Of a stretch of 64,000 bases of DNA, positions 9,938-26,903 are shown in pieces. Where the stretch lies: the NCBI RefSeq assembly GCF_002117105.1, contig NZ_CP019343.1:3720001-3784000 (forward strand), in the 5' to 3' direction. The notes under the pieces were generated by a model that saw nothing but the letters and a program-made list of their open reading frames with translations, did not search any database and was not told where the DNA came from. The position numbers and the translations under genes are program-made. Within the stretch, counting starts at the first letter, position 1. Each line of letters begins with the position of its first letter. Source of the DNA: Oceanicoccus sagamiensis. GTDB taxonomy: Bacteria > Pseudomonadota > Gammaproteobacteria > Pseudomonadales > Dasaniaceae.

Positions 9938-9956
9938 TTAATCACTGGACACTGTT

Positions 9957-10733
9957 ATGAACGAATTATTAGAGCCTTTTTCCCTTGAAGGTAAAGTCGC
10001 CATGGTTACCGGAGCCTCCAGTGGCTTTGGTGAGCATTTTGCGCAAGTGTTAGCAAAAGCGGGTGCCAAAGTGGTATTGGGTGCGCGTCGCACTGAAAAA
10101 TTAAAAGCAGTGACTGATGCAATCAATGCCGATGGTGGTCAGGCCGTCGCAGTCACTATGGATGTGACAGACAGTGCCAGTATTGCCGCAGCCTTTGATG
10201 AGGCAGAAAAAGCCTTTGGTCTGATTACCATTATCGTCAATAACGCCGGTATCACCATTCCAAAACTGTTATTGGATTTAACTGATGATGACTGGAATAA
10301 CGTAGTTGACACCAATCTAACAGGTGTTGCTTTCGTTAGTCGCGAAGCTGGCAAGCGTTTGGTTGCCGCTAAAACCGCTGGCAGCATTATTAATATCGCT
10401 TCTATTACTGCCGAGCGTTTGCAAAAAGCCCTAACCAGTTATGCAGCTGCTAAAGCGGGTGTCGTGCAATTGACTAAAGTGACTGCATTAGAGTTTGCGC
10501 GCCATAATATCCGTGTTAATGCCATCTCTCCTGGCTACTTCAGTACACCGTTGAATAGCGAGTGGTTTAAAACCCCTGATGGCCAAGCCCTTATTCAACG
10601 CGTACCTACGAGACGTATCGGGGATATGAAGGAGTTGAATGGTCCGTTATTGTTGCTTGCCTCCGATGCAAGTTCTCTTATGACCGGTTCCAATATTACT
10701 GTCGATGGCGGTCACGTCCTGTCTGAACTATAA
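9957..10733 (+). CDS. Short-chain dehydrogenase/reductase (SDR)
   Basis: This is a classical 258-residue SDR with the cofactor motif TGASSGFG (about 18-25), the NNAG motif, and the catalytic pair Y162/K166 (YAAAK). It ends with the usual DGGHVLSEL-type tail. It probably interconverts an alcohol and a ketone, perhaps a hydroxyacyl-CoA or a dihydrodiol formed by the preceding Rieske oxygenase, whose stop lies 19 bases upstream. The basic residues in the ARRTEK segment after strand 2 suggest NADP(H). It is a plain member of a large family, so the substrate is not predictable. Confidence 0.9.
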   Translation: MNELLEPFSLEGKVAMVTGASSGFGEHFAQVLAKAGAKVVLGARRTEKLKAVTDAINADGGQAVAVTMDVTDSASIAAAFDEAEKAFGLITIIVNNAGITIPKLLLDLTDDDWNNVVDTNLTGVAFVSREAGKRLVAAKTAGSIINIASITAERLQKALTSYAAAKAGVVQLTKVTALEFARHNIRVNAISPGYFSTPLNSEWFKTPDGQALIQRVPTRRIGDMKELNGPLLLLASDASSLMTGSNITVDGGHVLSEL

Positions 10734-10756
10734 GTTTTTTTTGAGGTTATAAACCG

Positions 10757-12379
10757 ATGCAAAACCCTTTAACGCAGGAGCGTATCGATCGCGATGGCCA
10801 CCTGTGGTCCAACCTGACTATTTCTGAAGCTGCTTGGCAAAAAGCTGAAGCCAGTCCCGATGATGTTGCCATTTATTTAGAAGATGAACCTGCTATTACT
10901 TATGGTTCTGTGGCAGAAGAAGCTCGTCGTCTGATTACCGGTTTACGTAAACTGGGTATGGAAGAGGGCGACACGATTAGCTTTCAACTGCCTAACTGGC
11001 GAGAGTCGGTGATTGTTGATATTGCAGCTTCTGCGATGGGTTTGTTAGTTAATCCGGTGATCCCTATTTATCGTGACCGTGAATTGCGATTTATTTTAAA
11101 AGATGCCAATACCAAATTGATTTATATTCCGGAGCAAATTCGTAGTCTTGAATTCCCTTCGATGATTGCCTCCCTCAAACCAGAGCTGCCTAATCTTGCG
11201 CATGTCGTTACTGTTCGTGCGGAAGGTGACCATGAGGGGATGCTGCGCTTTGAAGATCTGATGGATAATGAGCCGGTTGATCTGGCGACATTGCCAAAAG
11301 TTGATCCAAATTCGATAAAAACCATTCTCTATACGTCGGGTACCACCGGTAATCCCAAGGCGGTATTGCATAGCCATAACACCTTGGCGCGTATTATTCA
11401 GAACTCAGTGGATTGCTGGGGTATGGATGAGAATGACGTTATGATTATGCCTTCACCGGTTACCCATGTTACCGGTTACGGTTCCGGTATGGTGTTACCG
11501 TTTATATCCCCGGTTAAATCTGCCTTGATGCCGCGTTGGGATGCAGATGCAGCGGTTGATTATATCGAGCGTGTGGGTGGTACCGCCAGTGTGGGTGCAA
11601 CACCGTTCTTAGTGGAGTTGTTAGCTGCTGCCAAACGTAAAAATACCCGTTTACCGACCATGCGTTTATTTGCCTGCGGTGGTGCTGCCGTGCCGCCACA
11701 ATTAATTCATCAGTGCTACGAAGAATTAGAAAATTGCCGTGCTTTCCGGGTTTACGGTAGTACTGAGTGCCCGGTTATCACCCAGGGTTTTGTGAAAGCG
11801 GGTGAGCAGGAACTGGCTGCCGAAACCGACGGTATGATTTACGCCTACGATGTCAAAATTCTCGATGATGATGGCAACGAGTTGCCCAGAGGTGTTGATG
11901 GCGAAATCGCAGCTCGCGGTGCCGGTATGATGCTGGGCTATGGTATTGCTGAACAGAATGCCTCGGGACATGATGCCGATGGTTATTTCCTGACAGGCGA
12001 TATTGGTGTGCGTACTGAAGATGACGCCATCCTGATCACCGATCGTAAAAAAGATATTATTATTCGTGGTGGTGAAAATCTTTCCGCTAAAGAAATTGAA
12101 GATGTGTTACATGATCACCCTATGATAAAAGAAGCCGCGGTAGTGGCTATGCCGCATGAGCGTTTGGGTGAGGGTGTTTGTGCCTATCTAATTTTGGAGC
12201 AGGCAGAAGCCTCACTGGAGCTAAGTGAAGTTGCTGCGTTTGCGGATAGTGCTTCTTTAGCCAAACAAAAGATCCCGCAGCATATTCAAGTTGTTGCTGA
12301 CCTGCCTCGTACCGCCAGTGGCAAGGTACGCAAAGATGTTTTACGCAAAGAGATTAAAGCGATTATTGAACAAGCCTAA
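10757..12379 (+). CDS. Acyl-CoA synthetase (class I adenylate-forming, AMP-binding)
   Basis: This 540-residue ligase should activate a carboxylic acid through acyl-AMP to acyl-CoA. The P-loop YTSGTTGNPK is at 192-201. Later come the YGSTE block, the LTGDIG hinge region, RKKDIIIRGGEN, and the C-terminal PRTASGKVRK with the catalytic lysine. Length and motifs match fatty or aromatic acyl-CoA synthetases. It lies 23 bases after an SDR and 9 bases before an MDR reductase, followed by thiolase and FadB genes. It is therefore the likely entry point of the released acid into CoA-dependent degradation. Specificity is unknown. Confidence 0.92.
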   Translation: MQNPLTQERIDRDGHLWSNLTISEAAWQKAEASPDDVAIYLEDEPAITYGSVAEEARRLITGLRKLGMEEGDTISFQLPNWRESVIVDIAASAMGLLVNPVIPIYRDRELRFILKDANTKLIYIPEQIRSLEFPSMIASLKPELPNLAHVVTVRAEGDHEGMLRFEDLMDNEPVDLATLPKVDPNSIKTILYTSGTTGNPKAVLHSHNTLARIIQNSVDCWGMDENDVMIMPSPVTHVTGYGSGMVLPFISPVKSALMPRWDADAAVDYIERVGGTASVGATPFLVELLAAAKRKNTRLPTMRLFACGGAAVPPQLIHQCYEELENCRAFRVYGSTECPVITQGFVKAGEQELAAETDGMIYAYDVKILDDDGNELPRGVDGEIAARGAGMMLGYGIAEQNASGHDADGYFLTGDIGVRTEDDAILITDRKKDIIIRGGENLSAKEIEDVLHDHPMIKEAAVVAMPHERLGEGVCAYLILEQAEASLELSEVAAFADSASLAKQKIPQHIQVVADLPRTASGKVRKDVLRKEIKAIIEQA

Positions 12380-12388
12380 GAGGCGCCT

Positions 12389-13384
12389 ATGAATCGTCAG
12401 TTTTTACTGAATGCCCATCCCGTCGGTGATATCAAACTCACCGATTTAAAATATCACGAGAGCCCAATGCCGGTGATGGGGGAAGGTGAGATTTTAGTAA
12501 AAATGGAATATCTGGCGGTTGAGCCTGCCATGCGTGGTTGGATGGCGGGGCGCTCTGATTATACCGAGCCGCTTAAAGTCGGTGACTTGATGCGAGGCTT
12601 TGGTGCCGGTGAAGTGATTGAGTCGGCCAATAGCCTGTATCAGGTAGGTTGCCGAGTGAGTGGCTTATTGGGTATGCAGGAATATGCGGTCACCAATGGT
12701 GAAAATTTTCCTATCGGTATTATTGATGAGGCGATTGATACTGCTTCACATTTAGGCGTGTTAGGTGTTACCGGCCTAACTGCTTACTGCGGCCTAAAAG
12801 CTATCGGTCAACCCAAGGTAGGAGAGACCGTATTGGTTTCTGCTGCTGCGGGTGCCACCGGTTCTGTAGTTGGTCAGTTGGCCAAATTACAGGGTTGCCG
12901 TGTTATTGGCCTGGCCGGTTCCGCTAAAAAGTGTGAGTGGCTAACAGGTGAATTAGGTTTTGATGCGGCGATTAACTACAAAACCGATAATGTTGCCGAG
13001 AGTATCCAGCAGCATTGCCCAGGGGGTATTGATATCTATTGGGATAATGTGGGCGGCGCCATACTGGATTTAGCCCTCGAGCAGTTGGCTGTCGGTGCTC
13101 GTATTGTCGTTTGTGGTGGTATCTCACGGTATAACGTGAGCGGTGAAGTCCCCGGCCCTAAAAACTATTTTAATATTGTGTTTAATAATGCATTAATGAA
13201 AGGTTTTGTCGTTTCCCATTATGCCCATTTATTTCCAGAGGCAATTGCGGAGCTAAAGAAATATTTACTCAGCGGTGAGTTAAAGCACCATGAGGATATT
13301 GTAGAAGGTTTTGAGCAGGCGCCGGTGGCGCTACAGCGATTGTTTAATGGCGATAATGTCGGTAAGCAGTTGGTTAAGGTATAA
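12389..13384 (+). CDS. Zinc-independent medium-chain (MDR) NADPH oxidoreductase
   Basis: This 331-residue protein resembles the leukotriene B4 12-hydroxydehydrogenase / curcumin reductase / 2-alkenal reductase group, which reduces alpha,beta-unsaturated ketones or aldehydes with NADPH. The nucleotide site is VSAAAGATGSVVGQLAK near residues 150-166. The Cys/His zinc ligands of alcohol dehydrogenases are absent from the N-terminal domain. It starts 9 bases after the acyl-CoA synthetase. In this context it could saturate an enone such as an ionone-like product; this is an inference from family chemistry and not seen in the sequence. Confidence 0.88.
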   Translation: MNRQFLLNAHPVGDIKLTDLKYHESPMPVMGEGEILVKMEYLAVEPAMRGWMAGRSDYTEPLKVGDLMRGFGAGEVIESANSLYQVGCRVSGLLGMQEYAVTNGENFPIGIIDEAIDTASHLGVLGVTGLTAYCGLKAIGQPKVGETVLVSAAAGATGSVVGQLAKLQGCRVIGLAGSAKKCEWLTGELGFDAAINYKTDNVAESIQQHCPGGIDIYWDNVGGAILDLALEQLAVGARIVVCGGISRYNVSGEVPGPKNYFNIVFNNALMKGFVVSHYAHLFPEAIAELKKYLLSGELKHHEDIVEGFEQAPVALQRLFNGDNVGKQLVKV

Positions 13385-13414
13385 GGTTTAGATTTAAGTT
13401 TTTGGAGAGTAAGT

Positions 13415-14623
13415 ATGCCCATAGAAGCATTTGTCTACGATGCAATCCGTACCCCAAGGGGTAAAGGTAAAGTTGGTGGTGGTTTAAATGAAGTAACCCC
13501 AATTAATTTAGTCGTTGGCTTATTGGAAGAGTTAAAAAAACGTAATGACCTTGATACCACGCAGGTCGATGACGTGGTGTTAGGTTGTGTGACGCCAACA
13601 GGCGAGCAGGGTGCCGTTATGCCCAAGCTGGCTTTGTTGGCTTCAAGCTGGGATGAGAAAGTCTCTGGTCAGCAGATTAACCGCTTTTGTGGTTCCGGTC
13701 TGGAAACTGTTAACCTGGCTGCTATGAAGGTGGCTTCAGGCTGGGAAGACTTAGTCGTTGCCGGTGGTTATGAGTCTATGTCTCGTGTCACTATGGGTAG
13801 CGATGGTGGCGCCTGGGTGCAAGATACCGACACCAACGCCAAACTGAATTTTGTACCTCAAGGAATTAGTGCTGATCTGATCGCAACCATCGACGGTTAT
13901 TCCCGTGAAGATGTTGATGCTTATGCTGTTCGTTCACATCAGCGCGCCGCCCATGCCCGTGATAATGGTTATTTTGATAACCAGATTATTCCTGTGCGCG
14001 GCCTTAATGGTGAAATTATTCTGGATCACGATCAACTGATTCGTCCTACCGCTACTGTTGAGTCTTTAGGGCAGTTAACGGCTGTGTTCAAAGATATGGG
14101 CGAGCAGGCCTATGATGCGGTGGCTAAATTACGCTATCCCGAACTTGAGTTTGTTAACCATGTGCATACCGCTGGCAACTCTTCCGGTATTGTGGATGGT
14201 GCGTCACTGGTCTTAATTGGTAGCGAAGCCAAAGGTAAAGAGCTGGGTCTAAAACCCCGTGCTCGTATCGTCGCAACGGCTATCACCAGTAATGAACCTA
14301 CGATTATGCTCACAGCACCGTCAGAAGCTGCGGAAAAAGTGCTAAAGAAAGCCGGTATGACCACCGACGATATTGATATTTTTGAACTTAACGAAGCCTT
14401 TGCGTCTGTTGTTATGCGCTTCCAAACCCGTCTTAATATTTCTGATGACAGAATCAATGTTAACGGTGGCGCGATTGCTATGGGCCATCCGTTGGGTGCT
14501 ACTGGCGGTATGATTCTGGGTACCGTGGTTGAAGAGCTGGAGCGTCGTCAATTAAAGCGTGGTCTGGTCACATTGTGTATCGGTGGCGGTATGGGTATTG
14601 CCACGATTATTGAACGCGTTTAA
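13415..14623 (+). CDS. Thiolase (acetyl-CoA acetyltransferase / 3-ketoacyl-CoA thiolase)
   Basis: This 402-residue enzyme cleaves 3-ketoacyl-CoA with CoA. Unlike the thiolase-fold gene at 7388, it has a complete active site: nucleophile C92 in [18 protein letters not shown], the GHPLGATGG motif with its catalytic His, and the C-terminal CIGGGMG containing the second Cys. It is followed 39 bases later by a FadB-type gene, so the two form a normal beta-oxidation pair in FadA-FadB order. It probably handles the final chain-shortening steps of this island's substrate. Confidence 0.93.
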
Positions 14624-14662
14624 CTATCGGCATTAGCAAAGAATAGAGATAAGGGTAAAACA

Positions 14663-16804
14663 ATGAGTCATGTAACAATCAGTAAAGATGCCGATAATAT
14701 TGTCACGATTTTACTGGACGATCCTGAGCGTCCGGTCAATGTGATGAATGCGGGCTATATCGAAGGTATGGAAAAAGCCGCCAATGCTATTGAAGCGGAT
14801 ATCGACACTGTTGCCGGTGTGATTATCGCTTCGGCTAAAAGTACTTTCTTCGCCGGTGGCGACCTCGATGAAATTCTGGCATTAACCCAGGACAATGCTG
14901 CGGCCTATGGTGAAAAAGGTCTGCGTATTAAAGCCAGTTTAAGAAAGCTGGAAACTTTGGGTAAGCCTGTTGTGGCTGCCATTAATGGTGCTGCCCTGGG
15001 CGGTGGTTATGAAATTTGTTTGGCCGCGCATCATCGCGTAGCAATCGATGACCGTGCAGTGACTATCGGTTTGCCGGAAGTGACTTTAGGTTTATTGCCT
15101 GGTGCTGGCGGCATTGTTCGTACCGTGCGTATGCTGGGTTTAAAAGCGGCATTGCCAGTCTTAAGTCAAGGGCGCAACTATAATGCGCAAGCTGCATTAA
15201 AAGCGGGTTTGATTGATGATATTGCCAGCGATGCTGACGATATGATCGCCAAGGCTAAAGCCTGGATTCAAGCCAACCCTGAATCATCACAGCCCTGGGA
15301 TGTTAAGCGCTTTCAGTTCCCCGGTGGCAATGTGGACAGCCGAGCTATTCTGAGTTTGATCCCGATGGCCGGTGCTGAGTTGTTAGGCCGCCGCAAAGGT
15401 TTATATCCTGCTGAGTCCGCTATTCTAAATTGCGCCATTGAAAGTATGCGTATTGATTTTGACGGTGCCAGCCGTGTTGAAAGCCGTTATTTAGCCAATC
15501 TTGCGGTCACGCCTGAAGCTAAAAATATGATGACCTATTTTTTCCAGATGCAAAAAATTCGCGGCGGTTCTGCGCGCCCTGATGGTTTTGATAAAAGCAA
15601 AGTCTCGAAGGTAGGTATTTTGGGGGCCGGTATGATGGGTGCCGGTATTGCTTACTGTGCAGCTGCTGCCGGCATTGATGTTGTGCTTAAAGATGTGAGT
15701 AAAGAACAGGCGGAAAAAGGCAAAGCTTATAGTGCAACAGTGTTGGATGGTTTGATTGCCAAGGGCCGTTCAAGCGACGCTAAAAAAACTGACATTCTTG
15801 CTCGCATAAATGCCACTGATAATATGGCGGACCTTAAAGGTTGTGAGTTAGTCGTTGAGGCTGTATTTGAAAAGCAGGCGCTAAAAGAAACCGTTACTCA
15901 AGAAGCTGAAGCGCAATTAGCAGAAGGGGTGGTCTTTGCGACTAACACATCTACGTTGCCTATTACGGGTTTGGCTGCAGCATCTCGTAATGCTGCAAAC
16001 TATATTGGCCTGCATTTCTTCTCTCCTGTCGATAAGATGGCTTTGGTAGAAATTATCTGTGGCAAAGACACCAGCGATGCGACCTTGGCTAAAGGTTATG
16101 ACTTTGTTAAACAGATTCGTAAAATACCGATTGTGGTCAATGATAGTCGTTGCTTCTATACCTCACGTTGCTACGAAGTGTATCAGGATGAAGCTGCCTG
16201 GTTATTAAGTGACGGTGTTAGCCCGGTGCTGATGGAAAACCTGGCGGTGCAGGTTGGTCTTCCGGTGGGGCCGCTAGCGGCTAACGATGAAGTTGCCCAG
16301 CGTCTTATTCTAGAAATTAAAAACTCCGTTAAAGCCGGTGTTGAAGCGCAAGGCAATAGCTATCCTGTAGATAAGCCTCCTTACCAGTGGATGAAAAAAA
16401 TGGTTGAGGAATTAGGCCGTCTCGGTAAGGCCAGTGGTGCGGGTTACTATGACTACCCTGAAGGTGAGAAAAAACGTATTTGGCCTGAGCTGCAAGCTTT
16501 ACAACCTGCTGCTACTCAGGATATTACTCATCAGGATATTAAAGATCGCTTAATGTTCTGCCAGTCGGTTGAGGCTGTACGCTGTCTTGAAGAGAAGGTA
16601 TTACGCTCGGTAGAAGATTGTAATATTGGCTCTATTCTTGGGCTGGGCTTTCCTGTTTATACCGGTGGCCAATTGCAGTATATCAATAGCTATGGTGTAC
16701 AGGCTTTTGCTGATCGTGCTCAAGAGCTGGCTGATAAATTTGGTGAGCGCTTTGCCCCTCCAGCGTTATTGCTGGAAATGGCCGCCGCTAATAAAACGTT
16801 TTAG
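14663..16804 (+). CDS. Bifunctional enoyl-CoA hydratase / 3-hydroxyacyl-CoA dehydrogenase (FadB/FadJ type)
   Basis: This 713-residue multifunctional beta-oxidation protein has an N-terminal crotonase domain (about 1-190) with the oxyanion-hole segment AGGDLDEI, GAALGGGYE, and the catalytic Glu region GLPEVTLGLLPGAGG. The middle holds a Rossmann NAD-binding domain beginning at VGILGAGMMGAGIAY (about 315). The dehydrogenase continues through HFFSPVDKMALVEII and a C-terminal helical domain. It hydrates enoyl-CoA and oxidises the hydroxyacyl-CoA that the upstream thiolase cleaves. Length is in the usual 700-730 range. No acyl-CoA dehydrogenase gene is in the window, so the first oxidation step must be encoded elsewhere or be unnecessary. 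Confidence 0.93.
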   Translation: MSHVTISKDADNIVTILLDDPERPVNVMNAGYIEGMEKAANAIEADIDTVAGVIIASAKSTFFAGGDLDEILALTQDNAAAYGEKGLRIKASLRKLETLGKPVVAAINGAALGGGYEICLAAHHRVAIDDRAVTIGLPEVTLGLLPGAGGIVRTVRMLGLKAALPVLSQGRNYNAQAALKAGLIDDIASDADDMIAKAKAWIQANPESSQPWDVKRFQFPGGNVDSRAILSLIPMAGAELLGRRKGLYPAESAILNCAIESMRIDFDGASRVESRYLANLAVTPEAKNMMTYFFQMQKIRGGSARPDGFDKSKVSKVGILGAGMMGAGIAYCAAAAGIDVVLKDVSKEQAEKGKAYSATVLDGLIAKGRSSDAKKTDILARINATDNMADLKGCELVVEAVFEKQALKETVTQEAEAQLAEGVVFATNTSTLPITGLAAASRNAANYIGLHFFSPVDKMALVEIICGKDTSDATLAKGYDFVKQIRKIPIVVNDSRCFYTSRCYEVYQDEAAWLLSDGVSPVLMENLAVQVGLPVGPLAANDEVAQRLILEIKNSVKAGVEAQGNSYPVDKPPYQWMKKMVEELGRLGKASGAGYYDYPEGEKKRIWPELQALQPAATQDITHQDIKDRLMFCQSVEAVRCLEEKVLRSVEDCNIGSILGLGFPVYTGGQLQYINSYGVQAFADRAQELADKFGERFAPPALLLEMAAANKTF

Positions 16805-16813
16805 GGTTGATCT

Positions 16814-17956
16814 ATGGGCCCGTTGGCTGGACTAAAAGTAATCGAATTAATGGGCCTGGGCCCTGCGCCATTTTGCAGTATGTTGCTGGCAGATATGGGG
16901 GCGGAAGTTATTTTGGTGGAACGCAAAGCGGGCGATGCCAAGCCGGTTGAAGTGACTCGCCGAAATCGTCGCTCTATTGCTCTCAACCTAAAACAGCAGC
17001 AGGGTATTGATACGCTGCTGGCTTTAGTCGATAAAGCGGATGTGTTAATTGAAGGTTTCCGTCCCGGTGTGACTGAGCGTTTAGGTATTGGTCCGGAGGT
17101 TTGTTTAGAACGAAACCCCGGTTTGATTTACGGTCGTATGACCGGTTGGGGTCAAGAGGGCCCAATGGCCAGTGCAGCGGGTCATGATATTAACTATATC
17201 TCGTTAACCGGTGCGCTGCATGCGATTGGCCGCAAAGGCGATGCGCCGGTGCCGCCGTTAAACCTGGTGGGTGACTATGGTGGCGGCAGTATGTATTTGG
17301 CCTTTGGTATTCTGTCTGCTTTATATGAGCGGCAGCAAAGTGGCAAAGGGCAGGTAATCGATGCTGCTATGGTGGATGGTGCAGCATCCTTAATGACCTT
17401 GTTTCATGACTTGCGGGAAATGGGTTCATTTACCGCAGAGCGGGGTGCTCATTTTTTAAATACCGGTGCGCCTCATTATGAAGTGTATGAAACCAAGACC
17501 GATGCGACGGTTGATAAGCAGTATATTTCTGTAGGGCCCTTGGAGCCGCAGTTCTATGATCTATTGATTGATACGTTGGGGCTGAACCGGGAAGATTTTT
17601 ATCCGCAAGCAGATGAAAGTCAGTGGCCCCGCAGAAAAGAAATTTTAGCCGCTGTGTTTCTGACGCGCAGCCGTCAAGAGTGGTGTGATTTGCTAGAGGG
17701 TAGCGATGCCTGTTTTTCCCCGGTACTCTCAATGTGGGAGGCGCCAGAGCATCATCATATGAAAGCTCGCGGCACCTTTATTGATATTGAAGGTGTTCAA
17801 CAACCGGCGCCAGCGCCACGTTTTAGTCGTTCGCAACCGGCAGTGCCAGTACCACCCCGACGTCCGGGCGAAGACTCTGTGCAGGTACTACAGGATTATG
17901 GTTTTGATGCAGAGGCGATTGAGCAGTTGCTGGCCTCCGGTGCGGTGATGCAATAA
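16814..17956 (+). CDS. Alpha-methylacyl-CoA racemase-like CaiB/BaiF (class III) family enzyme
   Basis: This 380-residue protein is of the CaiB/BaiF family. Its start, GPLAGLKVIEL followed by GPAPFCSMLLADMGAEV, and its GRMTGWGQEGP block are characteristic of alpha-methylacyl-CoA racemase. The racemase acid-base pair positions appear as H124 (AGHDINY) and D154 (VGDYGGG). It starts 9 bases after the fadB-like gene. Such racemases invert the 2-methyl centre so that branched acyl-CoAs can enter beta-oxidation, which points to an isoprenoid or steroid-like side chain. A CoA-transferase function is possible, but the His-Asp pair favours racemase. Confidence 0.87.
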   Translation: MGPLAGLKVIELMGLGPAPFCSMLLADMGAEVILVERKAGDAKPVEVTRRNRRSIALNLKQQQGIDTLLALVDKADVLIEGFRPGVTERLGIGPEVCLERNPGLIYGRMTGWGQEGPMASAAGHDINYISLTGALHAIGRKGDAPVPPLNLVGDYGGGSMYLAFGILSALYERQQSGKGQVIDAAMVDGAASLMTLFHDLREMGSFTAERGAHFLNTGAPHYEVYETKTDATVDKQYISVGPLEPQFYDLLIDTLGLNREDFYPQADESQWPRRKEILAAVFLTRSRQEWCDLLEGSDACFSPVLSMWEAPEHHHMKARGTFIDIEGVQQPAPAPRFSRSQPAVPVPPRRPGEDSVQVLQDYGFDAEAIEQLLASGAVMQ

Positions 17957-17975: not shown

Positions 17976-18905
17976 ATGAGTTTTTCATTTGATTCTACCT
18001 GTGATGATGTTGTTAGTGGTGTAGACCTTAGCGGTAAAACCGCGGTGGTTACCGGCGCCTATGGTGGCCTTGGTAAAGAAACTGTTAGAGCGCTAGCCAG
18101 CAAAGGCGCCAAGGTGATTGCTGTGGGCCGAAACCAGCAGCGCCTTGATGAAACCGTTAGCGAGTTAACAGCCTTAACAGCTAACGAGAATATCAGCGCT
18201 GTGGTTATGGATCTAGCTGATCTAAGCAGCGTTAAATCAGCTTCTGAAACCATTGTAGGTTTATGTCCACAGATTGATATACTGATCAACAATGCCGGTA
18301 TTATGGCTTGTCCTCTGGATAGAACTGCGCAGGGTCTGGAAATGCAAATCGGTGTTAATCATGTATCGCATTTCCTGATGACCTCGCTGCTATTGCCAGC
18401 ATTAAAAGCCGCAGCATCTGCTCGGGTTATTGCTTTGTCCTCCGTTGCCCATAAGTTTAGCGATGTGATGTATGACGATTTAAACTGGGATAAAACCGAG
18501 TATGATCGTATGAAGGCTTACGGCTCTGCCAAATCAGCCAATGCGGTCTTTGCGGTTGAATTTAATCGTTTATACGGTGCTGAGGGTATTACCGCCAATG
18601 CGGTTCATCCCGGCCTGATTCTTACTGAGTTGGGCAGGCATTTTACCGCTGAAGACTCTGCGGCAATGAGCTCCGAAGGTATGCAGTTAAAAACTATTGA
18701 GCAAGGTGCGGCCACTTCAGTTTGGGCGGCGACCAGCCCGGAGCTGGAAGGCAAGGGCGGTCTCTATCTGGAGGATTGCCAAATTGGCGAAGCCCTTGGC
18801 CATACGAATCCTTTGGTGGGTTACTGTGATTATATTATGGATGCTGAGGCCGGAAAAAACCTGTGGCAGCAAACGGAACAGTTGATAGACGGGCTATCCT
18901 TTTAA
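17976..18905 (+). CDS. SDR of the retinol dehydrogenase-like group
   Basis: This 309-residue SDR is longer than the classical form and resembles retinol dehydrogenase / WW-domain oxidoreductase-type proteins. It has TGAYGGLG (cofactor), NNAGIMACP, and the catalytic Y182/K186 (YGSAK). It is a close relative of the SDR at 20444-21367; both share a start like DLSGKTAVVTGA, ILINNAGIM and a C-terminal GAATSV.A.SPE block. It starts 19 bases after the racemase gene. Enzymes of this type often handle hydrophobic alcohols or aldehydes, which would suit apocarotenal-like products, but that is only a family-level hint. Confidence 0.88.
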   Translation: MSFSFDSTCDDVVSGVDLSGKTAVVTGAYGGLGKETVRALASKGAKVIAVGRNQQRLDETVSELTALTANENISAVVMDLADLSSVKSASETIVGLCPQIDILINNAGIMACPLDRTAQGLEMQIGVNHVSHFLMTSLLLPALKAAASARVIALSSVAHKFSDVMYDDLNWDKTEYDRMKAYGSAKSANAVFAVEFNRLYGAEGITANAVHPGLILTELGRHFTAEDSAAMSSEGMQLKTIEQGAATSVWAATSPELEGKGGLYLEDCQIGEALGHTNPLVGYCDYIMDAEAGKNLWQQTEQLIDGLSF

Positions 18906-18955: not shown

Positions 18956-20386
18956 ATGAAACGTAGAGATTTTTTGCAATATACCGGTTTAGGTGCAATG
19001 GGCGTGGCAACGACTTCTGTGATAACAGGTTGCTCTGAGGAGCCCGTCACCAAGTTTTGGCAGCAGGGTAACTATCGTCCGGTTTCTGACGAAGTTACAG
19101 AAACTACGCTAAAAGTTGAAGGCACTATTCCGCCAGAATTAAGCGGCCTGTATGTTCGTAACGGTACTAACGAGTCCACTGGTATTGCGCCACATTTCTT
19201 TGGTGGTGACGGTATGCTGCACGGTATCCGCCTTGAGAACGGTAAAGCCAAGTGGTATCGCAATCGCTATGTGGACACCCCTGTTTACCGTAAAGAGACA
19301 GGCGGGTTTAGTGCTCCAAAACCGGAAGACACCACTTCTGCGGTTTCTGTGCTCTACCACGGCGACAAATTAATGTCTTTGGGTGAGTTTGGTTACCCCT
19401 ATGAGATTGACCCCGCTGACTTATCCACTAAGGGGCCGTTTAACTATGAAGGGCAGCTGCCCGGTAATATGACGGCGCACCCAAGAATTGATCCGGTTAC
19501 CGGTGAGTTATTGTTCTTTGGTTATGATGTGACAGCACCTTATTTGACCTATATGCGCGCTGACAAGGCGGGCAATATGTTGCAGGTAGAGCCGATTGAA
19601 ATGTCCGGCGCCAGCATGATTCACGATTTTGCTGTCACTGATAATTATGTGGTGTTTATGGATATGCCGGTACGTTTTTCATGGCTGTCTGTTGCCATGG
19701 GTGAAGGCCTGCCGTTTAAATGGGATGACTCCCATATGACGCGCTTTGGTGTTATGCCTCGCACCGGTACCAATGCCGATGTTAAATGGTTTGATATTCC
19801 CGCCTGTTTTGTTTTCCATATTATGAACTCCTTTGAGCAGGGCGATGAAGTGATGGTCGATGCTGCTCGCTATGATAATCTTTGGGTGAAAAACTCCCAT
19901 GATTTCTTCCACCCGGCGCATCTGTCACGTTTCTCGATGAATATGAAAACCGGTCAGGCCTCGGTGCAACGTATCTATGAAGGTGCGATGGAATTCCCAC
20001 AGGTTAACCGTTCATTGTGGACCAAGCCTTATCGCTATGGTTATAGCCTGGTGGTCGATGAAAAATATGATACACCTGAATTAATTAATCAGGCTTCCAG
20101 CGGTATCAGAAAATATGATTTGCAAACCGGAGAGGCGGATAGTTGGTTACCTGGCCCTGATTTGCTACCCGGTGAAGCTGTGTTTATCCCCGCTAATGAG
20201 AATGGTGGCGGTGAAGATGAAGGCTATCTCTGTAGCTATGTCTATGACAAAAATACTGAGAAGAGTGCTTTCTGTATCTTTGATGCCACTAAGGTGTCCG
20301 CTGGACCGATTGCCAAAGTACAGCTACCTGTTCGGGTCCCGGTAGGCTTCCACGGTGTATGGGTACCCGATTCAGCAATGGCTTAA
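18956..20386 (+). CDS. Tat-exported lipoprotein carotenoid oxygenase family enzyme
   Basis: This 476-residue CCO family member has an export signal. R3-R4 in MKRRDFLQYTG form a twin-arginine motif, a short hydrophobic stretch follows, and ITGC (23-26) is a lipobox with C26 as the lipidated residue. The four iron His are present: H175 (TAHPR), H223 (MIHDF), H288 (FVFHIM) and H466 (GFHGVW). It should fold with iron in the cytoplasm and then be anchored at the periplasmic or outer-membrane face. By eye its blocks look more like isoeugenol/lignostilbene oxygenases than the two cytoplasmic CCOs here do. It lies between two related SDR genes. Confidence 0.9.
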   Translation: MKRRDFLQYTGLGAMGVATTSVITGCSEEPVTKFWQQGNYRPVSDEVTETTLKVEGTIPPELSGLYVRNGTNESTGIAPHFFGGDGMLHGIRLENGKAKWYRNRYVDTPVYRKETGGFSAPKPEDTTSAVSVLYHGDKLMSLGEFGYPYEIDPADLSTKGPFNYEGQLPGNMTAHPRIDPVTGELLFFGYDVTAPYLTYMRADKAGNMLQVEPIEMSGASMIHDFAVTDNYVVFMDMPVRFSWLSVAMGEGLPFKWDDSHMTRFGVMPRTGTNADVKWFDIPACFVFHIMNSFEQGDEVMVDAARYDNLWVKNSHDFFHPAHLSRFSMNMKTGQASVQRIYEGAMEFPQVNRSLWTKPYRYGYSLVVDEKYDTPELINQASSGIRKYDLQTGEADSWLPGPDLLPGEAVFIPANENGGGEDEGYLCSYVYDKNTEKSAFCIFDATKVSAGPIAKVQLPVRVPVGFHGVWVPDSAMA

Positions 20387-20443: not shown

Positions 20444-21367
20444 ATGGGCGGCTTTAACCGTTGGTCTACCGCTGAGAAAGTCAGTGAGGGCATTGATTTA
20501 AAGGGCAAGACTGCCTTGGTAACAGGGGCTAATACGGGGCTGGGTTTAGAAACCACTCGGGTATTAGCCTTGCGCGGCGCTAAAGTCATTATGGCCTGCC
20601 GTGACCAGCAAAAAGCTGAAGCTGCGCGGGACAAAATTGTCGCTGAAAGCGCGGGTAATATACAGCCTGAACAGTTGTTAAACCTCCCACTTGATATGAA
20701 TGCTCTGGCTAGTGTGCGGGCATCTGCGGAAGAGTTTTTAAGCTGGGATATGCCGCTGGATATACTGATCAATAATGCCGGTATTATGATCCCCATGGAG
20801 CGCCGTACCGAGGATGGTTTTGAAGCCCATCTGGGTATTAATCATTTAGCCCACTTTCTGTTTACTCGTTTAATTATTGATGCCTTAAAGCGTGCCGGTC
20901 AGGCCAGGGTGGTCGTTGTTGCCTCGGGCGCTATGGGTATGGCGACGCAAACTGCCGAGCTTAATGATATCAATTGGGAAGAGAGAAAGTTTAGCGGTAT
21001 GCGTTCTTACGGCGATTCCAAGCTGATGAACTTATTATTTGCTAAAGAACTCAACAAACGCTTTAACCAAGATGGCATTGTTGCCAATGCTTTGCACCCC
21101 GGTGTTATTGCCACGGAGCTGGCCCGCGATCAAAGTTTACCCTTTATGATTCTGGGACTTGTGGCCATCCCCTTTATGAAATCCAAGGGGCAGGGCGCCG
21201 CCACCAGTGTTTATCTGGCTACCTCACCGGATTATGCCAGCAAAGGTGGCTTGTATTTTTCCAGTTGTCAGGAAGCACGCCCCGAATACAAATTAGCATC
21301 TGACGAAGCTTTGTGTACTGCCGTTTGGGAGCGCAGTGAAGCTTTAACAGGTTTAGATAATAGATAA
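20444..21367 (+). CDS. SDR of the retinol dehydrogenase-like group
   Basis: This 307-residue SDR has the cofactor motif TGANTGLG, the NNAGIMIP segment, and catalytic Y189/K193 (YGDSK). It is a paralogue of the SDR at 17976-18905, and the pair brackets the Tat-lipoprotein CCO. Its start is ATG 20444, downstream of the hairpin that follows the CCO gene. The C-terminal GLYFSSCQEARP resembles the GLYLEDCQIGEA tail of its paralogue. Likely role: oxidation or reduction of a lipophilic alcohol or aldehyde. Cofactor preference may be NADP(H), given the Arg in ACRDQQK after strand 2. Confidence 0.88.
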   Translation: MGGFNRWSTAEKVSEGIDLKGKTALVTGANTGLGLETTRVLALRGAKVIMACRDQQKAEAARDKIVAESAGNIQPEQLLNLPLDMNALASVRASAEEFLSWDMPLDILINNAGIMIPMERRTEDGFEAHLGINHLAHFLFTRLIIDALKRAGQARVVVVASGAMGMATQTAELNDINWEERKFSGMRSYGDSKLMNLLFAKELNKRFNQDGIVANALHPGVIATELARDQSLPFMILGLVAIPFMKSKGQGAATSVYLATSPDYASKGGLYFSSCQEARPEYKLASDEALCTAVWERSEALTGLDNR

Positions 21368-21386: not shown

Positions 21387-22148
21387 ATGGGAACATTAGA
21401 CGGAAAGACCGCAGTCGTATTGGGTGCCTCAGGGCAAAGTAATTTTGGTACAGCCATTGCAAAACGCCTGGCGGCTGAAGGAGCCAATGTTGTGGTTGCT
21501 GCAAGGCGCAAAGAGCCGCTGGCTGAATTGGCCAAAGAGATAAACGGTTTGGCAGTGGCCTGTGATCTAACTGACGAAGCGCAGCTTGAAAACCTATTTA
21601 GCAGCGCCATGGAAAAATATGGACGGGTCGATATGGCCGTCAATTCAGCGGGTGTCCATGCCGCCGGTACCATTGCAGAATTAACCGCCGATATGATTCG
21701 CCCAACGCTGGAAGTCAGCTTTATTGGCGCCTTGTTGTTCTTTAAGCATGCTGCCGCAGTTATGGATAAGGGCGGGTCGGTGGTTACCGTCTCTTCATTA
21801 ACAGCCCGTATACCAGGGCCAGGTCTGGCTGCTTATTCCGGTGCCCGCGCTGGTATCGACTATGCCATTAAAGTGGCCGCCGTGGAATATCAGGAAAAGA
21901 AAATCCGTTTTAACTCTATTGCCGCCGGTATGATTCAAACCGATATGACGGATATGTTTTTTGCGATGCCGTCGGTGGTTCAGGCGCATTTGGATGAAAC
22001 CCCTTGTGGCCGTATGGGTACCGTAGATGATATGGCGGAAGCTGCGCTCTATCTGGCTGATGATTCACGCTCGGGTTATATCAATGGCCAGGTGCTGGAC
22101 CTTTCCGGTGGTCAGCAGATGGGTCATCTGCCGCGTTTTGATCTCTAA
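21387..22148 (+). CDS. SDR family protein with Arg in place of the catalytic Lys
   Basis: This 253-residue SDR fold has GASGQSNFG (13-21) as cofactor loop, NSAGV in place of NNAG, and S136-S137 near the catalytic Ser position. The usual YxxxK reads YSGAR, with Y150 and R154 in place of Lys. That Lys normally lowers the Tyr pKa and binds the nicotinamide ribose, so activity may be altered or lost, or the protein may do a different reaction. It lies 19 bases after another SDR and 11 before the MFS transporter, so it is co-transcribed with this island. Confidence 0.85.
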   Translation: MGTLDGKTAVVLGASGQSNFGTAIAKRLAAEGANVVVAARRKEPLAELAKEINGLAVACDLTDEAQLENLFSSAMEKYGRVDMAVNSAGVHAAGTIAELTADMIRPTLEVSFIGALLFFKHAAAVMDKGGSVVTVSSLTARIPGPGLAAYSGARAGIDYAIKVAAVEYQEKKIRFNSIAAGMIQTDMTDMFFAMPSVVQAHLDETPCGRMGTVDDMAEAALYLADDSRSGYINGQVLDLSGGQQMGHLPRFDL

Positions 22149-22159: not shown

Positions 22160-23467
22160 ATGGATCAGTCAGCGACACCCCCTGAACAAGAAACCCCTTA
22201 TAGTCAGGCTTCGTCCCGTTACTATATGCTGGGTGTGCTGACCTTGATCTATGCGGTTAATTTTATTGACCGTCAATTGCTGGCTATTTTGCAAGAACCG
22301 ATTAAAGCCGAATTGGGTTTATCGGATGGCCAGCTGGGTTTGTTGACCGGCTTTGCCTTTGCAGTATTTTATGTCACAGCCGGTATCCCCATTGCCAGTC
22401 TTGCCGATAAAGCCAACCGTAGAAATATTATTGCCAATGTCGTTGCGCTGTGGAGTGTGATGACCGCCGCCTGCGGTCTGGCACAAAATTATTGGCAGTT
22501 ATTGGCTGCCCGTATTGGGGTTGGCGTTGGTGAGGCCGGTTGCAGTCCACCAGCACATTCCATGTTGTCCGATGTATTCCCCCCTTCATTTAGAGCGACA
22601 GCCTTGTCGATTTACTCCTCAGGGATTAATGTTGGTATCTTATTTGGTTTTTTATTAGGCGGTTGGCTCAATGAATTTTTTGGCTGGCGGGTCGCTTTTA
22701 TTGTTGTTGGTTTGCCGGGTGTATTAATTGCTCTGTTAGTAAAGTTTTCAATCGCGGAACCTATTCGAGGCTTTTCTGAAGATAGGCAGGCGGCAGCCAA
22801 GGCCAAACCCAGTAAATTAAACGATGTGCTAAAACTAATTTGGTCGCGTCCCAGTTTGCGTCACTTGATGTTTGCCGGCTCCTTATCTGCGTTTAGTGGT
22901 TATAGCGTTACTAGTTGGATTGCCTCATATATTTTAAGAAATTATGAGATGGGTACCGGTGAGCTCGGTACATGGCTGGCGTTGACGATTGGCGTCTTTG
23001 GTGCAATCGGTACGCTATGCTCCGGGGTGATTGCTGACCGTTTGGGGCGGCGTGATCAGCGCTGGTATATGTGGTTGCCTGCCATTGCTTCGCTATTAGC
23101 TGCGCCGTTTTTTGCGTTGACCATGATGGCCTCTTCGGCGCAGGCTACGCTATTAATTAATATTGTCCCGATGATGTTATCCACAGTGTATGTGGGTAGT
23201 TGCGTCGCGATGATTCACGGTATGTTAAATATTAATATGCGCGCCACGGGGTCAGCGGTCTTTTATTTTATTCTGAATATTATTGGCCTGGGTTTAGGGC
23301 CTTATTCCGTTGGTCTGCTCAGTGATTATCTGCAGATTGATTACGGCGTTGATGGGCTGCGCTATGCCATGATGATTTTAATCTGCTCGGCCTGGCTGTG
23401 GTCTACGGTACATTATTATTGGGCATCAAAAACGCTAAAACAGGACCTGGCCAGAGTACCAGATTAA
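22160..23467 (+). CDS. MFS transporter, spinster-like
   Basis: This 435-residue polytopic membrane protein has about twelve hydrophobic segments. The first begins YYMLGVLTLIYAVNFIDRQ, where the membrane-embedded FIDRQ motif is typical of spinster-type MFS carriers. The MFS signature loop between helices 2 and 3 reads SLADKANRRN, and GVGVGEAGCSPPAHS marks helices 4-5. It probably moves an organic acid or a lipophilic degradation substrate across the inner membrane. Its position inside the catabolic operon suggests uptake or efflux of a pathway compound. Confidence 0.9.
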   Translation: MDQSATPPEQETPYSQASSRYYMLGVLTLIYAVNFIDRQLLAILQEPIKAELGLSDGQLGLLTGFAFAVFYVTAGIPIASLADKANRRNIIANVVALWSVMTAACGLAQNYWQLLAARIGVGVGEAGCSPPAHSMLSDVFPPSFRATALSIYSSGINVGILFGFLLGGWLNEFFGWRVAFIVVGLPGVLIALLVKFSIAEPIRGFSEDRQAAAKAKPSKLNDVLKLIWSRPSLRHLMFAGSLSAFSGYSVTSWIASYILRNYEMGTGELGTWLALTIGVFGAIGTLCSGVIADRLGRRDQRWYMWLPAIASLLAAPFFALTMMASSAQATLLINIVPMMLSTVYVGSCVAMIHGMLNINMRATGSAVFYFILNIIGLGLGPYSVGLLSDYLQIDYGVDGLRYAMMILICSAWLWSTVHYYWASKTLKQDLARVPD

Positions 23468-23490: not shown

Positions 23491-23844
23491 ATGAGTGCAG
23501 TGCGTATTTTATATTTACTATTAACCGTAGCGGGTTTAGTGATGCCCTGGTATTTCAATCTGCAATTTATGGCGCAGTATGGTGATGGCTTTAATCTCGA
23601 TCAATTTATTGCCGATAGCAGTTTAAATGCCGCGTCCAAGTCTTTGGGTTGGGATTTGATGGTAGCTTGCATTGCTGGCCTATGCTGGATGTTTTTTGAG
23701 TCGAGAAGACTGGGGCTGCGTTTTTTCTGGGTTTATATTGTACTGACCTTTGGTGTGGCTTTTGCTTTTGCCTTCCCTTTATTTTTATTTGTCCGCCAGG
23801 GCAAGCTTGAAAGCATAGAACAAACAACTAACAGTTTATCTTAA
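23491..23844 (+). CDS. Small membrane protein, DUF2834-like
   Basis: This 117-residue protein has three evident hydrophobic helices: near 3-20, near 50-70 (DLMVACIAGLCWMFF), and near 77-102 (FFWVYIVLTFGVAFAFAFPLFLF split by charged ends). The pattern fits DUF2834 family membrane proteins, whose role is not known. It lies 23 bases after the MFS gene and 13 before a PNPOx-like gene. Co-occurrence with the transporter hints at a membrane-associated part in this pathway; I assign no function. Confidence 0.75.
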   Translation: MSAVRILYLLLTVAGLVMPWYFNLQFMAQYGDGFNLDQFIADSSLNAASKSLGWDLMVACIAGLCWMFFESRRLGLRFFWVYIVLTFGVAFAFAFPLFLFVRQGKLESIEQTTNSLS

Positions 23845-23857: not shown

Positions 23858-24376
23858 ATGTCTGACGAAAAAATGAAAGGTTATGAAGATGTAACCCTGT
23901 ATACCTTAACCCCTGAGCGCGAGCAGGAGTTACTGGACAAGCAGATCGAGTGTAACTTTGTCTGGACCAACAAGGCGGGGCATGGCCTTGGCGTTATTAT
24001 GAATTATATCGCCAAAGATGGTTCTATCTGGGTGACGGCTACCAGTCAGCGCGCTCGTATTAAAGCCCTAAAACGTGATCCACGGGCTTCTGTTGTTATC
24101 TCCAGTATGGGTACAGATATGGGCCCCGGTAAAACTATTACCTATATGGGCAAGGTCACTATCCACGAAGACCAGGAAACCAAAGATTGGTTCTATCCTG
24201 CTATGGCGGATATTATTTCTCCTTATCCGGCACCTACCCATGAAGCTGCTATGGAGCATTTGGACACCCCATTGCGTGTCGTTCTGGAACTGGTGCCTGA
24301 AAAAGCGATTAAGTTTGATGGTGATGCCTTATCCAGCACGTCCTATGATGGCAAGGTACCAGGTCAGGAAAAGTAA
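23858..24376 (+). CDS. Pyridoxamine 5'-phosphate oxidase-like flavin-binding protein
   Basis: This 172-residue protein has the split beta-barrel fold of the PNPOx-like family. Features include the segment DGSIWVTATSQRARIKALKRDPRASVV (split here into IWVTATSQRAR and ALKRDPRASVV), where Arg/Lys residues typically contact FMN or F420 phosphate. These proteins reduce or oxidise small organics with flavin or deazaflavin, or bind haem. A second PNPOx-like gene is at 55100-55549 in the other catabolic region. The substrate is unknown. Confidence 0.8.
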   Translation: MSDEKMKGYEDVTLYTLTPEREQELLDKQIECNFVWTNKAGHGLGVIMNYIAKDGSIWVTATSQRARIKALKRDPRASVVISSMGTDMGPGKTITYMGKVTIHEDQETKDWFYPAMADIISPYPAPTHEAAMEHLDTPLRVVLELVPEKAIKFDGDALSSTSYDGKVPGQEK

Positions 24377-24438: not shown

Positions 24439-24810
24439 ATGATTTCTTATGTCACAGTAGGCACCAATGATTTTGCGCGTGCCGAAGGTTTTTTTAATGA
24501 GCTCTTAGTCGAGTTAAATGTGGCTCAGTCCATGAAAACTGATCGCATGATTTTTTGGGCTGATGAATCGCAAGGTGTAGGCTTTTCTGTGGTCAAGCCA
24601 CTCGATGGTGAGCCTGCAACCGTTGGCAATGGGGTAATGATTGCGCTATCCGCCAAAGATAAAGACCAGGTGGACCGCGCCTATCATAAGGCTCTGTCAT
24701 TAGGCGGTACCGATGAGGGTGAGCCCGGTATTCGCGGTCTTGGTTTTTATGTGGCGTATTTCAGGGATTTGGATGGTAATAAATTTAATATTTTCTGTGC
24801 CAAGCCTTAA
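24439..24810 (+). CDS. VOC superfamily (glyoxalase/extradiol dioxygenase-like) protein
   Basis: This 123-residue single-unit vicinal-oxygen-chelate protein has paired beta-alpha-beta-beta-beta modules, starting MISYVTVGTNDFARAEGFF and ending YFRDLDGNKFNIFC. Members bind a divalent metal between modules and act as glyoxalases, isomerases, epimerases or resistance proteins. The DLDGNKF end contributes the last strand; the typical C-terminal E.G.K metal residue is not obvious, so it may not be a classical glyoxalase I. Its TAA overlaps the ATG of the PQQ dehydrogenase gene by one base, implying coupled translation. Confidence 0.8.
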   Translation: MISYVTVGTNDFARAEGFFNELLVELNVAQSMKTDRMIFWADESQGVGFSVVKPLDGEPATVGNGVMIALSAKDKDQVDRAYHKALSLGGTDEGEPGIRGLGFYVAYFRDLDGNKFNIFCAKP

Positions 24811-26903
24811 TGTTGCGTTTACTGTCAGTTGTCTGCCTTTTATTTTCGGCTTTCTCTTATAGCGAGATTAATAATCAAGCCATCGCCAACCCTGATCAGG
24901 ATGGCGGTTGGTATTCCTATGGCCGCACCTATAGCGAACAACGTTTTAGCCCTGAGCGTGCCATTAATGACCAGACTGTCAGCAAGCTGTCGCTGGATTG
25001 GTCTCTAGAACTTCCCTCAATGAAATCTTTAAATGCCACTCCCTTAGTGGTGGATGGCGTGATGTATTTTTCTGGCACGCATTCAGTCGTGATTGCTGTC
25101 AATGCGTTAACCGGTGCTGAGCTGTGGCGCTATGACCCCAAAAGTCTGGCAGCCTTGCAGCAAAACCGCCGTCAGGAAACTATGATGTCCTGGGGGACCA
25201 GTAGGGGTATTGCCTTTTGGAAGGGGCGTGTTTTTGTTGGTACGGCCGATGGTCGCTTGATTGCTATTGATGCTAAAACGGGTGTGCCGGTCTGGGTGGT
25301 ACAAACCACAGCCATTGATGGGCCTTTAGGCATTACCGGTGCCCCGAGAGTATTTAATGATACGGTAATTATTGGTAATGGCGGCTCTGAATTTGGTCCG
25401 GTCCGTGGTTATGTCACCGCCTACGATACCGAAACCGGTAAGCAGCGCTGGCGGTTTTATAGTGTACCCGGCAACCCCGCCGATGGTTTTGAAAATAAAG
25501 CCATGGCCATGGCCGCCAAAACCTGGAAAGGCGAGTGGTGGAAGCACGGTGGTGGCGGTACGGTTTGGAATGCCATTACCTATGACCCGGAGTATAACCG
25601 TGTTTATTTAGGCACCGGCAACGGCGCTCCCTGGAATCAAAAAATCCGCAGTCCCGGTGGTGGCGATAATTTATTTCTTTGCGCTATCGTCGCTTTGGAT
25701 GCCGATACCGGTGAATATATCTGGCATTATCAAACCAACCCCGGTGAAACCTGGGATTATAATTCGGCTATGGACATTATGCTGGCGGATCTGGAGTTAG
25801 ACCAGCAGCAGCGCAAGGTGATTATGCATGCACCTAAAAATGGATTTTTTTATGTTATCGATCGTGACAATGGCAAGGTTATTTCCGCAGAAAAATTTAG
25901 CAAAGTCACTTGGGCTGAACGTATCGATCTTACAACAGGGCGGCCGGTTGAAGACCCAAGTGCCCGCTATATGAGCGAACCGGCACTGGTATGGCCCAGC
26001 GGTTACGGTGCCCATAATTGGCATGCTATGTCCTATAGCCCGAACACCGGTCTGGTGTATATTCCTACTCAGGAAATCCCCAGCTTGTTTGATGATAGCG
26101 AGTTGGATTTAGAGCAATGGCAGAGCAGCATGTTCCGCTGGAGTGTGGGCACCAATAAAGTCACCGAGGATTTTCCCGCTGATATCGGCAGTAGCTCGCT
26201 ACTGGCCTGGGACCCTGTCAAACAACAAAAAGCGTGGGAAAAACCTTTGCCCGGCGCCTGGAATGGCGGCACATTGGCGACTGCGGGTAATCTGGTTTTC
26301 CAGGGTACGGCGGCGGGGCACTTAGTTGCCTATCGCGCAGACAGCGGCAAAGAACTATGGCGTTTTCCTGTGGGTGTCGGTATCTCAGCGCCACCGATCA
26401 GTTATTCGATTAACGGTAAGCAATATATCTCGGTGCTCGCCGGTTGGGGTGGCGCAACCTATTTTGGTCTAAGTTTATTTGCCCAGCATGGCTGGGAATA
26501 CGGCGTACATACGCGCCGTTTATTAACTTTTTCTTTGCAGGGCAGTGCCACGCTGCCGCCTTTTGCGGCGCCGCTAACGGCCTTGCAATATGTGGACAAT
26601 CCCAAGCAAGTCATTGATGAGAAAAAAGCAGCAAGGGGTAAGTCTGCTTTTGCAGAAACCTGCTTTTATTGCCACGGCTATGGCATGGTTGCTGGAGGCG
26701 GCGCACCGGATTTACGGGCATCGACAATGGCCGCGAATAAAGCCTTATTTCAACAAATCGTCAAGGGGGGGTTATTACAGCAGCGGGGCATGCCAGCCTT
26801 TAGCGGTTTTAGTGATCAGCGTATAGATGATTTATATGAATATATTCGCTGGCGCGCGCGGGAGTCGGCTAACGCTAGCCGCGCTGTTCAACCGCAACCG
26901 TAA
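24810..26903 (+). CDS. Periplasmic PQQ-dependent dehydrogenase fused to cytochrome c (quinohaemoprotein type)
   Basis: This 697-residue protein has an N-terminal signal peptide (about 1-20) and an eight-bladed PQQ beta-propeller (about 30-580) with repeated tryptophan-docking motifs such as AVNALTGAELWRY and ALDADTGEYIWHY. A C-terminal cytochrome c domain carries CFYCH (C618, C621, H622) and a probable Met ligand in QRGMPAF. It should oxidise an alcohol or aldehyde in the periplasm and pass electrons through haem to the respiratory chain. The adjacent Cys-Cys pair that type I/II alcohol dehydrogenases use over PQQ is missing; that region reads MMSWGTSRG. Its end overlaps the convergent gene by 29 bases. 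Confidence 0.9.
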   Translation: MLRLLSVVCLLFSAFSYSEINNQAIANPDQDGGWYSYGRTYSEQRFSPERAINDQTVSKLSLDWSLELPSMKSLNATPLVVDGVMYFSGTHSVVIAVNALTGAELWRYDPKSLAALQQNRRQETMMSWGTSRGIAFWKGRVFVGTADGRLIAIDAKTGVPVWVVQTTAIDGPLGITGAPRVFNDTVIIGNGGSEFGPVRGYVTAYDTETGKQRWRFYSVPGNPADGFENKAMAMAAKTWKGEWWKHGGGGTVWNAITYDPEYNRVYLGTGNGAPWNQKIRSPGGGDNLFLCAIVALDADTGEYIWHYQTNPGETWDYNSAMDIMLADLELDQQQRKVIMHAPKNGFFYVIDRDNGKVISAEKFSKVTWAERIDLTTGRPVEDPSARYMSEPALVWPSGYGAHNWHAMSYSPNTGLVYIPTQEIPSLFDDSELDLEQWQSSMFRWSVGTNKVTEDFPADIGSSSLLAWDPVKQQKAWEKPLPGAWNGGTLATAGNLVFQGTAAGHLVAYRADSGKELWRFPVGVGISAPPISYSINGKQYISVLAGWGGATYFGLSLFAQHGWEYGVHTRRLLTFSLQGSATLPPFAAPLTALQYVDNPKQVIDEKKAARGKSAFAETCFYCHGYGMVAGGGAPDLRASTMAANKALFQQIVKGGLLQQRGMPAFSGFSDQRIDDLYEYIRWRARESANASRAVQPQP

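Follow-up and report, generated by a model that had tools for sequence, protein, structure and literature searches.

The gene under study occupies positions 18956..20386 (+) of the window (the whole stretch of 64,000 nucleotides that was analysed) and encodes a 476-aa protein, described here as a putative Tat-lipoprotein carotenoid cleavage oxygenase (CCO) on the basis of its RPE65 match, a comparison of N-termini and an AF2 model. The start codon is an ATG with GGAG upstream. The Pfam RPE65 profile (PF03055) matched residues 40-471 with 419.9 bits (cut-off 27) over the entire domain (profile positions 1-469 of 469), which places the protein in the CCO/RPE65 superfamily.

The CCO gene belongs to a long co-directional run, in which gaps of 11 to 62 bp separate the genes from 16814 to 24810, followed by a one-base overlap. 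An SDR oxidoreductase gene (17976..18905, +) lies upstream, at a distance of 50 bp. Downstream are two further SDR oxidoreductase genes (20444..21367 and 21387..22148, both +), a gene for an MFS transporter (22160..23467, +; PF07690, 167.5 bits), which is the third gene after the CCO with intervening gaps of 57, 19 and 11 bp, a gene for a DUF2834 membrane protein (23491..23844, +) and one for a PPOX-class protein (PNPOx_N; 23858..24376, +). A glyoxalase-like protein is encoded between the latter and a PQQ-dependent alcohol dehydrogenase with a C-terminal cytochrome c domain (24810..26903, +; TIGR03075, 563 bits for a cut-off of 480; PF13442). The dehydrogenase is probably periplasmic since its N-terminus, judged by eye, is hydrophobic and Sec-like. 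Several other quinoproteins are encoded in this genome, so that the PQQ neighbour may be there by chance. A GC-rich hairpin (GCCCCG-ATTAAA-CGGGGC, 20394-20411), devoid of a T run, was noticed between the CCO stop codon and the next gene.

The other end of the same run is formed by a CCO paralog lacking an export signal (430..1863, +) and by co-directional catabolic genes (1921..17956, +), seven of them assigned by Pfam and the rest named by eye. They include an E1/E2/E3 dehydrogenase complex, a ChsH2-type OB protein, a thiolase-like protein, a Rieske oxygenase and an SDR, as well as an AMP ligase (CoA ligase), a reductase, a thiolase, a FadB-like protein and a CoA-transferase of family III, a gene set which would suit the breakdown of branched chains. 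The genome, a single contig which is 100% complete, encodes 12 CCOs, 8 of which lie within about 125 kb (3.695-3.820 Mb, window included). The same region contains a TonB receptor (L018) and, by eye, several Rieske oxygenases, SDRs and CoA ligases; in part by eye, it has the appearance of a large catabolic island. CCO genes are close to similar Rieske oxygenases (by eye) at three places, window 430-9937, window 60336-63150 and L019 1956-7297; in the tree described below, the first two places have related CCOs and those of the third fall into another clade. On L019, two similar proteins of the maleate isomerase / Asp-Glu racemase type (16902-17744 and 19008-19829, by eye) flank a FAD-binding monooxygenase-like protein (PF01494), near the CCO L012.

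An ortholog of the CCO with 80% identity is present in a congener (G007) and one with 50% in a genome of another family (G162). Orthologs at 80% or above were recovered in 2/10 genomes of the family and 3/195 of the order, the own genome being counted, and the distribution of the gene is patchy. In the congener, the order of genes is SDR (two ORFs), an extra 139-aa ORF, CCO, two SDRs (72% and 79% identical to their counterparts), MFS (two ORFs), DUF2834 and PPOX (87% identical). No match to the PQQ dehydrogenase was found within the 120 kb of the congener that were read. On L052 of the same genome, the MFS, Rieske and SDR orthologs each appear as two overlapping ORFs, which may reflect sequencing errors or decay.

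Public records provided 14 further loci with CCO orthologs, of which 10 carry the names Halioglobus, Haliea, Halieaceae or Ca. Litorirhabdus, all Halieaceae; the ortholog of one locus (L049) is split into short frames. The neighbours of the CCO at these loci differ from those in this genus, and hence no partner gene is common to all loci. The first-pass annotation had proposed that the cleavage products are taken up by the adjacent MFS transporter. This proposal gains from the retention of the transporter gene in one congener and loses from the flanks of the 14 public orthologs (unequal, at most about 8 kb per side), where no ORF matching this transporter was found at E 1e-15; gene order thus gives at best a weak hint that products could be released to this transporter. 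Other features of the public loci hint at the envelope. In Litorirhabdus (L046), a TonB-dependent receptor is encoded directly upstream of the CCO and a quinoprotein before the receptor. An ORF with a lipobox pattern is the immediate neighbour of the CCO in 5/14 loci (L036, L038, L039, L044, L048) and the second neighbour in a sixth (L041), by a lax pattern matched by 18/145 flanking ORFs, some of them doubtful, with L043 and L049 unread. These neighbours include a beta-lactamase-like protein (L048) and a pectinacetylesterase-like protein, third from the gene (L041). Two of the 14 loci also contain a second CCO downstream of the Tat-lipoprotein CCO (L038 10424-11869 and L049 9418-10848), whose nearest paralog in the own genome is L004 (38-39%).

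Metal site, fold and likely substrate class

The four iron-ligand histidines of the family correspond to His175 (19478..19480, +), His223, His288 and His466 of the query and are present in 118/118 aligned CCOs. The first second-shell glutamate, Glu144 (19385..19387, +), is preceded by Gly143 and the two others are Glu346 and Glu407; these three residues and Gly143 are found in 12/12 ortholog-labelled sequences of the alignment. The query has the full metal site of the superfamily, for which a paper on lignostilbene dioxygenases (PMC8191317) gives four His as iron ligands and three acidic residues in the second shell. From its domain and metal-site residues, the gene product is predicted to be a CCO-family dioxygenase with nonheme iron that cleaves alkenes.

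The AF2 model (mean pLDDT 79.2, pTM 0.83) matched structures of the CCO family, with its seven-bladed propeller, at TM-scores by query length of 0.76-0.83 among the matches listed. Foldseek retrieved plant CCD1 (E 4.7e-39), and VIA-align gave Z values of 43.7 for LsdA, 43.1 for NOV1, 42.2 for VP14, 41.1 for ACO and 39.0 for CCD1. The fold search was uninformative as a guide to the substrate, carotenoid and stilbene enzymes being nearly tied. By sequence, the best PDB match was a carotenoid 9,10-dioxygenase (284 bits), VP14 scoring 217 and the lignostilbene dioxygenase LsdA 212. The closest enzyme of known structure, by sequence as well as by Foldseek E-value, is Osmanthus CCD1 (PDB 9m3e, 9m6z, 7vud), whose four His align with those of the query; unlike the query, it is a plant enzyme with another N-terminus and an Asp at the position of Glu346.

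The closest curated family by profile score is that of the 8'-apo-carotenoid 13,14-cleaving dioxygenases (NF052295), with the same metal-site His, on which the query scored 361.7 bits and its distant ortholog L030 361 bits against a cut-off of 675. Two proteins from the same phylum, L031 and L033, pass this cut-off; they are 38-39% identical to the query and, in contrast to it, have no export signal. A FastTree tree was built from 118 CCOs and 447 columns, the N-terminus being excluded. In this tree, the query, L031 and L033 fall into one clade with a support of 0.962, in which the inner joining branch has only 0.405. Two orthologs, L038 and L047, duplicate L114 and L030 and were kept under the latter names, so that the ortholog label stands on 12 sequences of a clade of 14; L246 (below the score filter) and the ortholog of the congener are outside the tree.

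On these grounds, we lean slightly towards a carotenoid or apocarotenoid as the substrate, which we judge likelier than a stilbene, without certainty. An enzyme at the same envelope location acting on a lignin- or stilbene-type aromatic alkene appears unlikely, although several observations would agree with it: LsdA, NOV1 and LSD4 have the fold of the query and VIA-align Z values (about 42-44) at or slightly above those of carotenoid enzymes, and a Rieske oxygenase and an E1-type dehydrogenase are encoded in the same gene run. For lignin-derived aromatics, a TonB receptor and an MFS transporter also figure in the reference list of a review (PMC12997858). However, the query reached only 247.8 bits on the lignostilbene-alpha,beta-dioxygenase equivalog (NF053778), for a cut-off of 800, and both sequence and tree lean to apocarotenoid enzymes. 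According to the available part of the LSD paper, Lys134 of LSD4 binds the stilbene phenol by contacting its 4-hydroxyl and is followed by Glu135 (PMC8191317). Read as the column before the first second-shell Glu, the position of this lysine is taken by Gly143 in the query and by Gly in 12/12 labelled orthologs, Lys being present in 8/118 CCOs. No signal, cytoplasm or localization terms were found in that part of the same paper.

The N-terminal signal

The protein begins with MKRRDFLQYTGLGAMGVATTSVITGC, with two arginines at positions 3-4 and a lipobox Cys at 26. The first-pass annotation had read an RRDFLQ motif and a lipobox Cys in this gene; both are present and its coordinates are exact. 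Residues 1-25 (18956..19030, +) constitute the predicted signal peptide, with a KRRDFLQ Tat motif and an uncharged h-region, and the codon of Cys26, the predicted lipidation site, is at 19031..19033 (+).

The N-termini of 16 orthologous sequences were compared (own, congener and 14 public loci, with that of the split L049 included, and L047 being identical to L030, the copy from G162). Arg3, Arg4, Gly25 and Cys26 are invariant in 16/16, whereas the stretch between the arginine pair and Gly-Cys differs in all 16 and contains zero charged residues. The mean pairwise identity is 0.85 for the n-region, 0.55 for the h-region, 1.0 for positions -1/+1, 0.51 for the linker and 0.81 for the start of the domain. 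Invariant ends around a variable uncharged core are the pattern of a signal peptide under selection. Some of the sequences are near one another (L036/L037, L042/L045), so that they do not amount to 16 independent events. The next in-frame ATG, M15, was rejected as an alternative start: position 15 is without Met in 12/16 sequences, which makes the M1 start well supported. In the AF2 model, residues 1-35 have a pLDDT below 50.

As a local control, simplified Tat and lipobox patterns were applied to 209 tiled ORFs from the surrounding 244 kb. The CCO was the only ORF to match both; one other matched the Tat pattern without lipobox, and the lipobox pattern was found in three, this CCO included. 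A chance combination of RR and Cys is ruled out by this control (1/209) together with the conservation in 16/16. The host encodes TatC (232 bits). The query is the only one of the 12 CCOs of its genome to pass both patterns. The other 11 passed neither, and in 9 of them the enzyme domain is at or close to the start. A hydrophobic N-terminal stretch was seen in the paralogs L010 and L012 and in a CCO paralog of the congener (G007 L055 15014-16642), which may represent a further way of membrane attachment.

Export and lipid anchoring, as proposed in the first-pass annotation, are therefore well supported as predictions by the conservation in 16/16, the control on 209 ORFs and the presence of TatC. 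The CCO is likely to be a lipid-anchored envelope protein, and it is likely to reach the envelope by the Tat route. In the 16 sequences, the residue at position +2 is S, G, A or T and never D, and by the +2 rule an outer-membrane location would be favoured.

Lipoprotein signals commonly have K or R at their start, and the query could be a Sec-exported lipoprotein, equally anchored in the envelope and independent of Tat, in which the arginine pair is incidental. We consider this improbable, as the whole RR-x-F-L motif is kept in 16/16 sequences, the distant L047 (about 50% identity) included, next to a variable h-region, and many other CCOs have Tat-type signals (see below). Even less probable is an uncleaved membrane anchor with the enzyme facing the cytoplasm: the N-terminal hydrophobic stretches of L010 and L012 offer a precedent for it among the paralogs, but the h-region of the query is short and Gly/Ala-rich, and the Gly-Cys lipobox lies at the right distance and is invariant in 16/16.

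Export among CCOs

To estimate how common export is in this family, CCO match rows were collected by searching the phylum (396 genomes) and the order (195 genomes), with only part of the candidates scored in CCO-rich genomes. N-termini were examined for 157/192 rows outside the own genome (90/104 and 67/88, counted by hand); the 35 rows left out comprise partial matches, weak long forms and unfetched stretches, the ortholog of the congener among them. A Tat pattern without lipobox was found in 33/157, two of which (L129 and L213) look spurious, and Tat and lipobox patterns together in 1/157, L171, an ortholog of the query. The assumption of the first-pass annotation that bacterial CCOs are mostly cytoplasmic is right for the majority only: with 33/157 matching a Tat pattern (two doubtful), exported CCOs can hardly be called rare. 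The query stands out by its combination of Tat signal and lipobox.

The Tat-pattern CCOs without lipobox (among them L156, L162, L164, L165, L167, L168, L190-L199, L201-L209, L223 and L225-L228) come from many proteobacterial genomes and mainly have lower Pfam scores. In the tree, the Tat-lipoprotein CCOs constitute a single clade (14 tips, support 1.0) embedded in CCOs without a signal. The tree contains 20 of the 33 Tat-pattern matches without lipobox, the other 13 being outside; 18/20 form one clade (support 1.0), which a split with a support of 0.991 separates from the Tat-lipoproteins. The two remaining sequences are L242 (= L222), which stands apart, and L119 (= L213, doubtful), which is placed among unsignalled CCOs. 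L245 and L248 bear no label in the tree though their N-termini matched the Tat pattern (as L226 and L165). The members of the clade of 18 share the superfamily and an N-terminal Tat pattern with the query, but they are far from it in the tree, score about 245-350 bits on the Pfam profile versus 420 for the query, and their signals end in signal peptidase I-like sites (by eye). Since Tat-lipoproteins and Tat-only CCOs occupy separate clades, export was probably gained more than once; it would have arisen at least twice, the lipid-anchored form probably being a separate gain.

L222 (= L242; G952:C24), a distant CCO, combines a Tat motif with a Cys (GLGPMGC); it fails the lipobox pattern because of a Pro at -3 and may be an independent Tat lipoprotein.

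A search of the open-access literature, with listings judged by title and start of the abstract and with subscription papers and preprints outside its scope, returned no description of an exported bacterial CCO. The query, a predicted CCO-family Tat cargo of which we found no described case in that literature, appears as a member of the family in an unusual place, with a likely location and a predicted function.

Source of the substrate and proposed pathway

No phytoene/squalene synthase (PF00494) was found in the host genomes carrying the CCO gene (0/4), the same profile being positive in 7/14 known genomes used as control. Of 20 matches to the CrtI family in the own genome, none reaches the cut-off. 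A carotenoid substrate, if such it is, would thus come from outside the cell, which fits an enzyme sited outside the inner membrane. A role on the cell's own carotenoids, or in making retinal for rhodopsin, is the least probable of the readings: a microbial rhodopsin in one ortholog-bearing genome (G965, 1/4) would speak for it, but for the own complete genome an endogenous carotenoid is rejected in view of the missing synthase and of CrtI matches that all fall below the cut-off, and retinal supply is rejected as no rhodopsin was found there.

Returning to an exported enzyme which probably breaks up carotenoid-like molecules not made by the host itself, the following scheme can be proposed. 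The CCO would fold and take up its iron in the cytoplasm before being exported by Tat; after lipidation on Cys26 it would, by the +2 rule, be directed to the outer membrane, where it would face the periplasm. At this site, it would split a double bond of a lipophilic polyene of external origin, a carotenoid or apocarotenoid being the most likely. The resulting smaller aldehydes might be oxidized in the periplasm by the PQQ dehydrogenase of the own genome and, after uptake, the products might enter cytoplasmic steps catalyzed by SDRs, Rieske oxygenases and CCOs, and the beta-oxidation of branched chains. We give even odds to the core of this scheme, in which a Tat-exported, lipid-anchored CCO splits an outside polyene whose products go to periplasmic and then cytoplasmic breakdown. 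The outer-membrane location, the substrate and all the downstream steps are deduced, and the oxidation by PQQ, the import by MFS and the feeding of the island by the products are speculative. A broader reading remains tentative and somewhat doubtful: a dedicated clade of CCOs would begin the breakdown of scavenged carotenoids outside the cytoplasm, by means of Tat and an outer-membrane anchor, and would pass the products to a quinoprotein and to a CCO-Rieske-beta-oxidation island, export having been gained at least twice in the family and once in lipid-anchored form.

Carotenoids are abundant and insoluble and, to our knowledge, little is known about their catabolism in bacteria. Attached on the periplasmic side, an enzyme of this kind would overcome the problem of access to such insoluble molecules. 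The CCO family would also offer a testable case of a cytoplasmic enzyme that was moved to the envelope more than once.

In G965, the rhodopsin gene is located at G965:C6:20618-21262 (L253), with a CCO about 13 kb away. Of 10 CCO candidates in this genome, 7 were scored, and it gave no match to phytoene/squalene synthase; its retinal might come from scavenged carotenoids.
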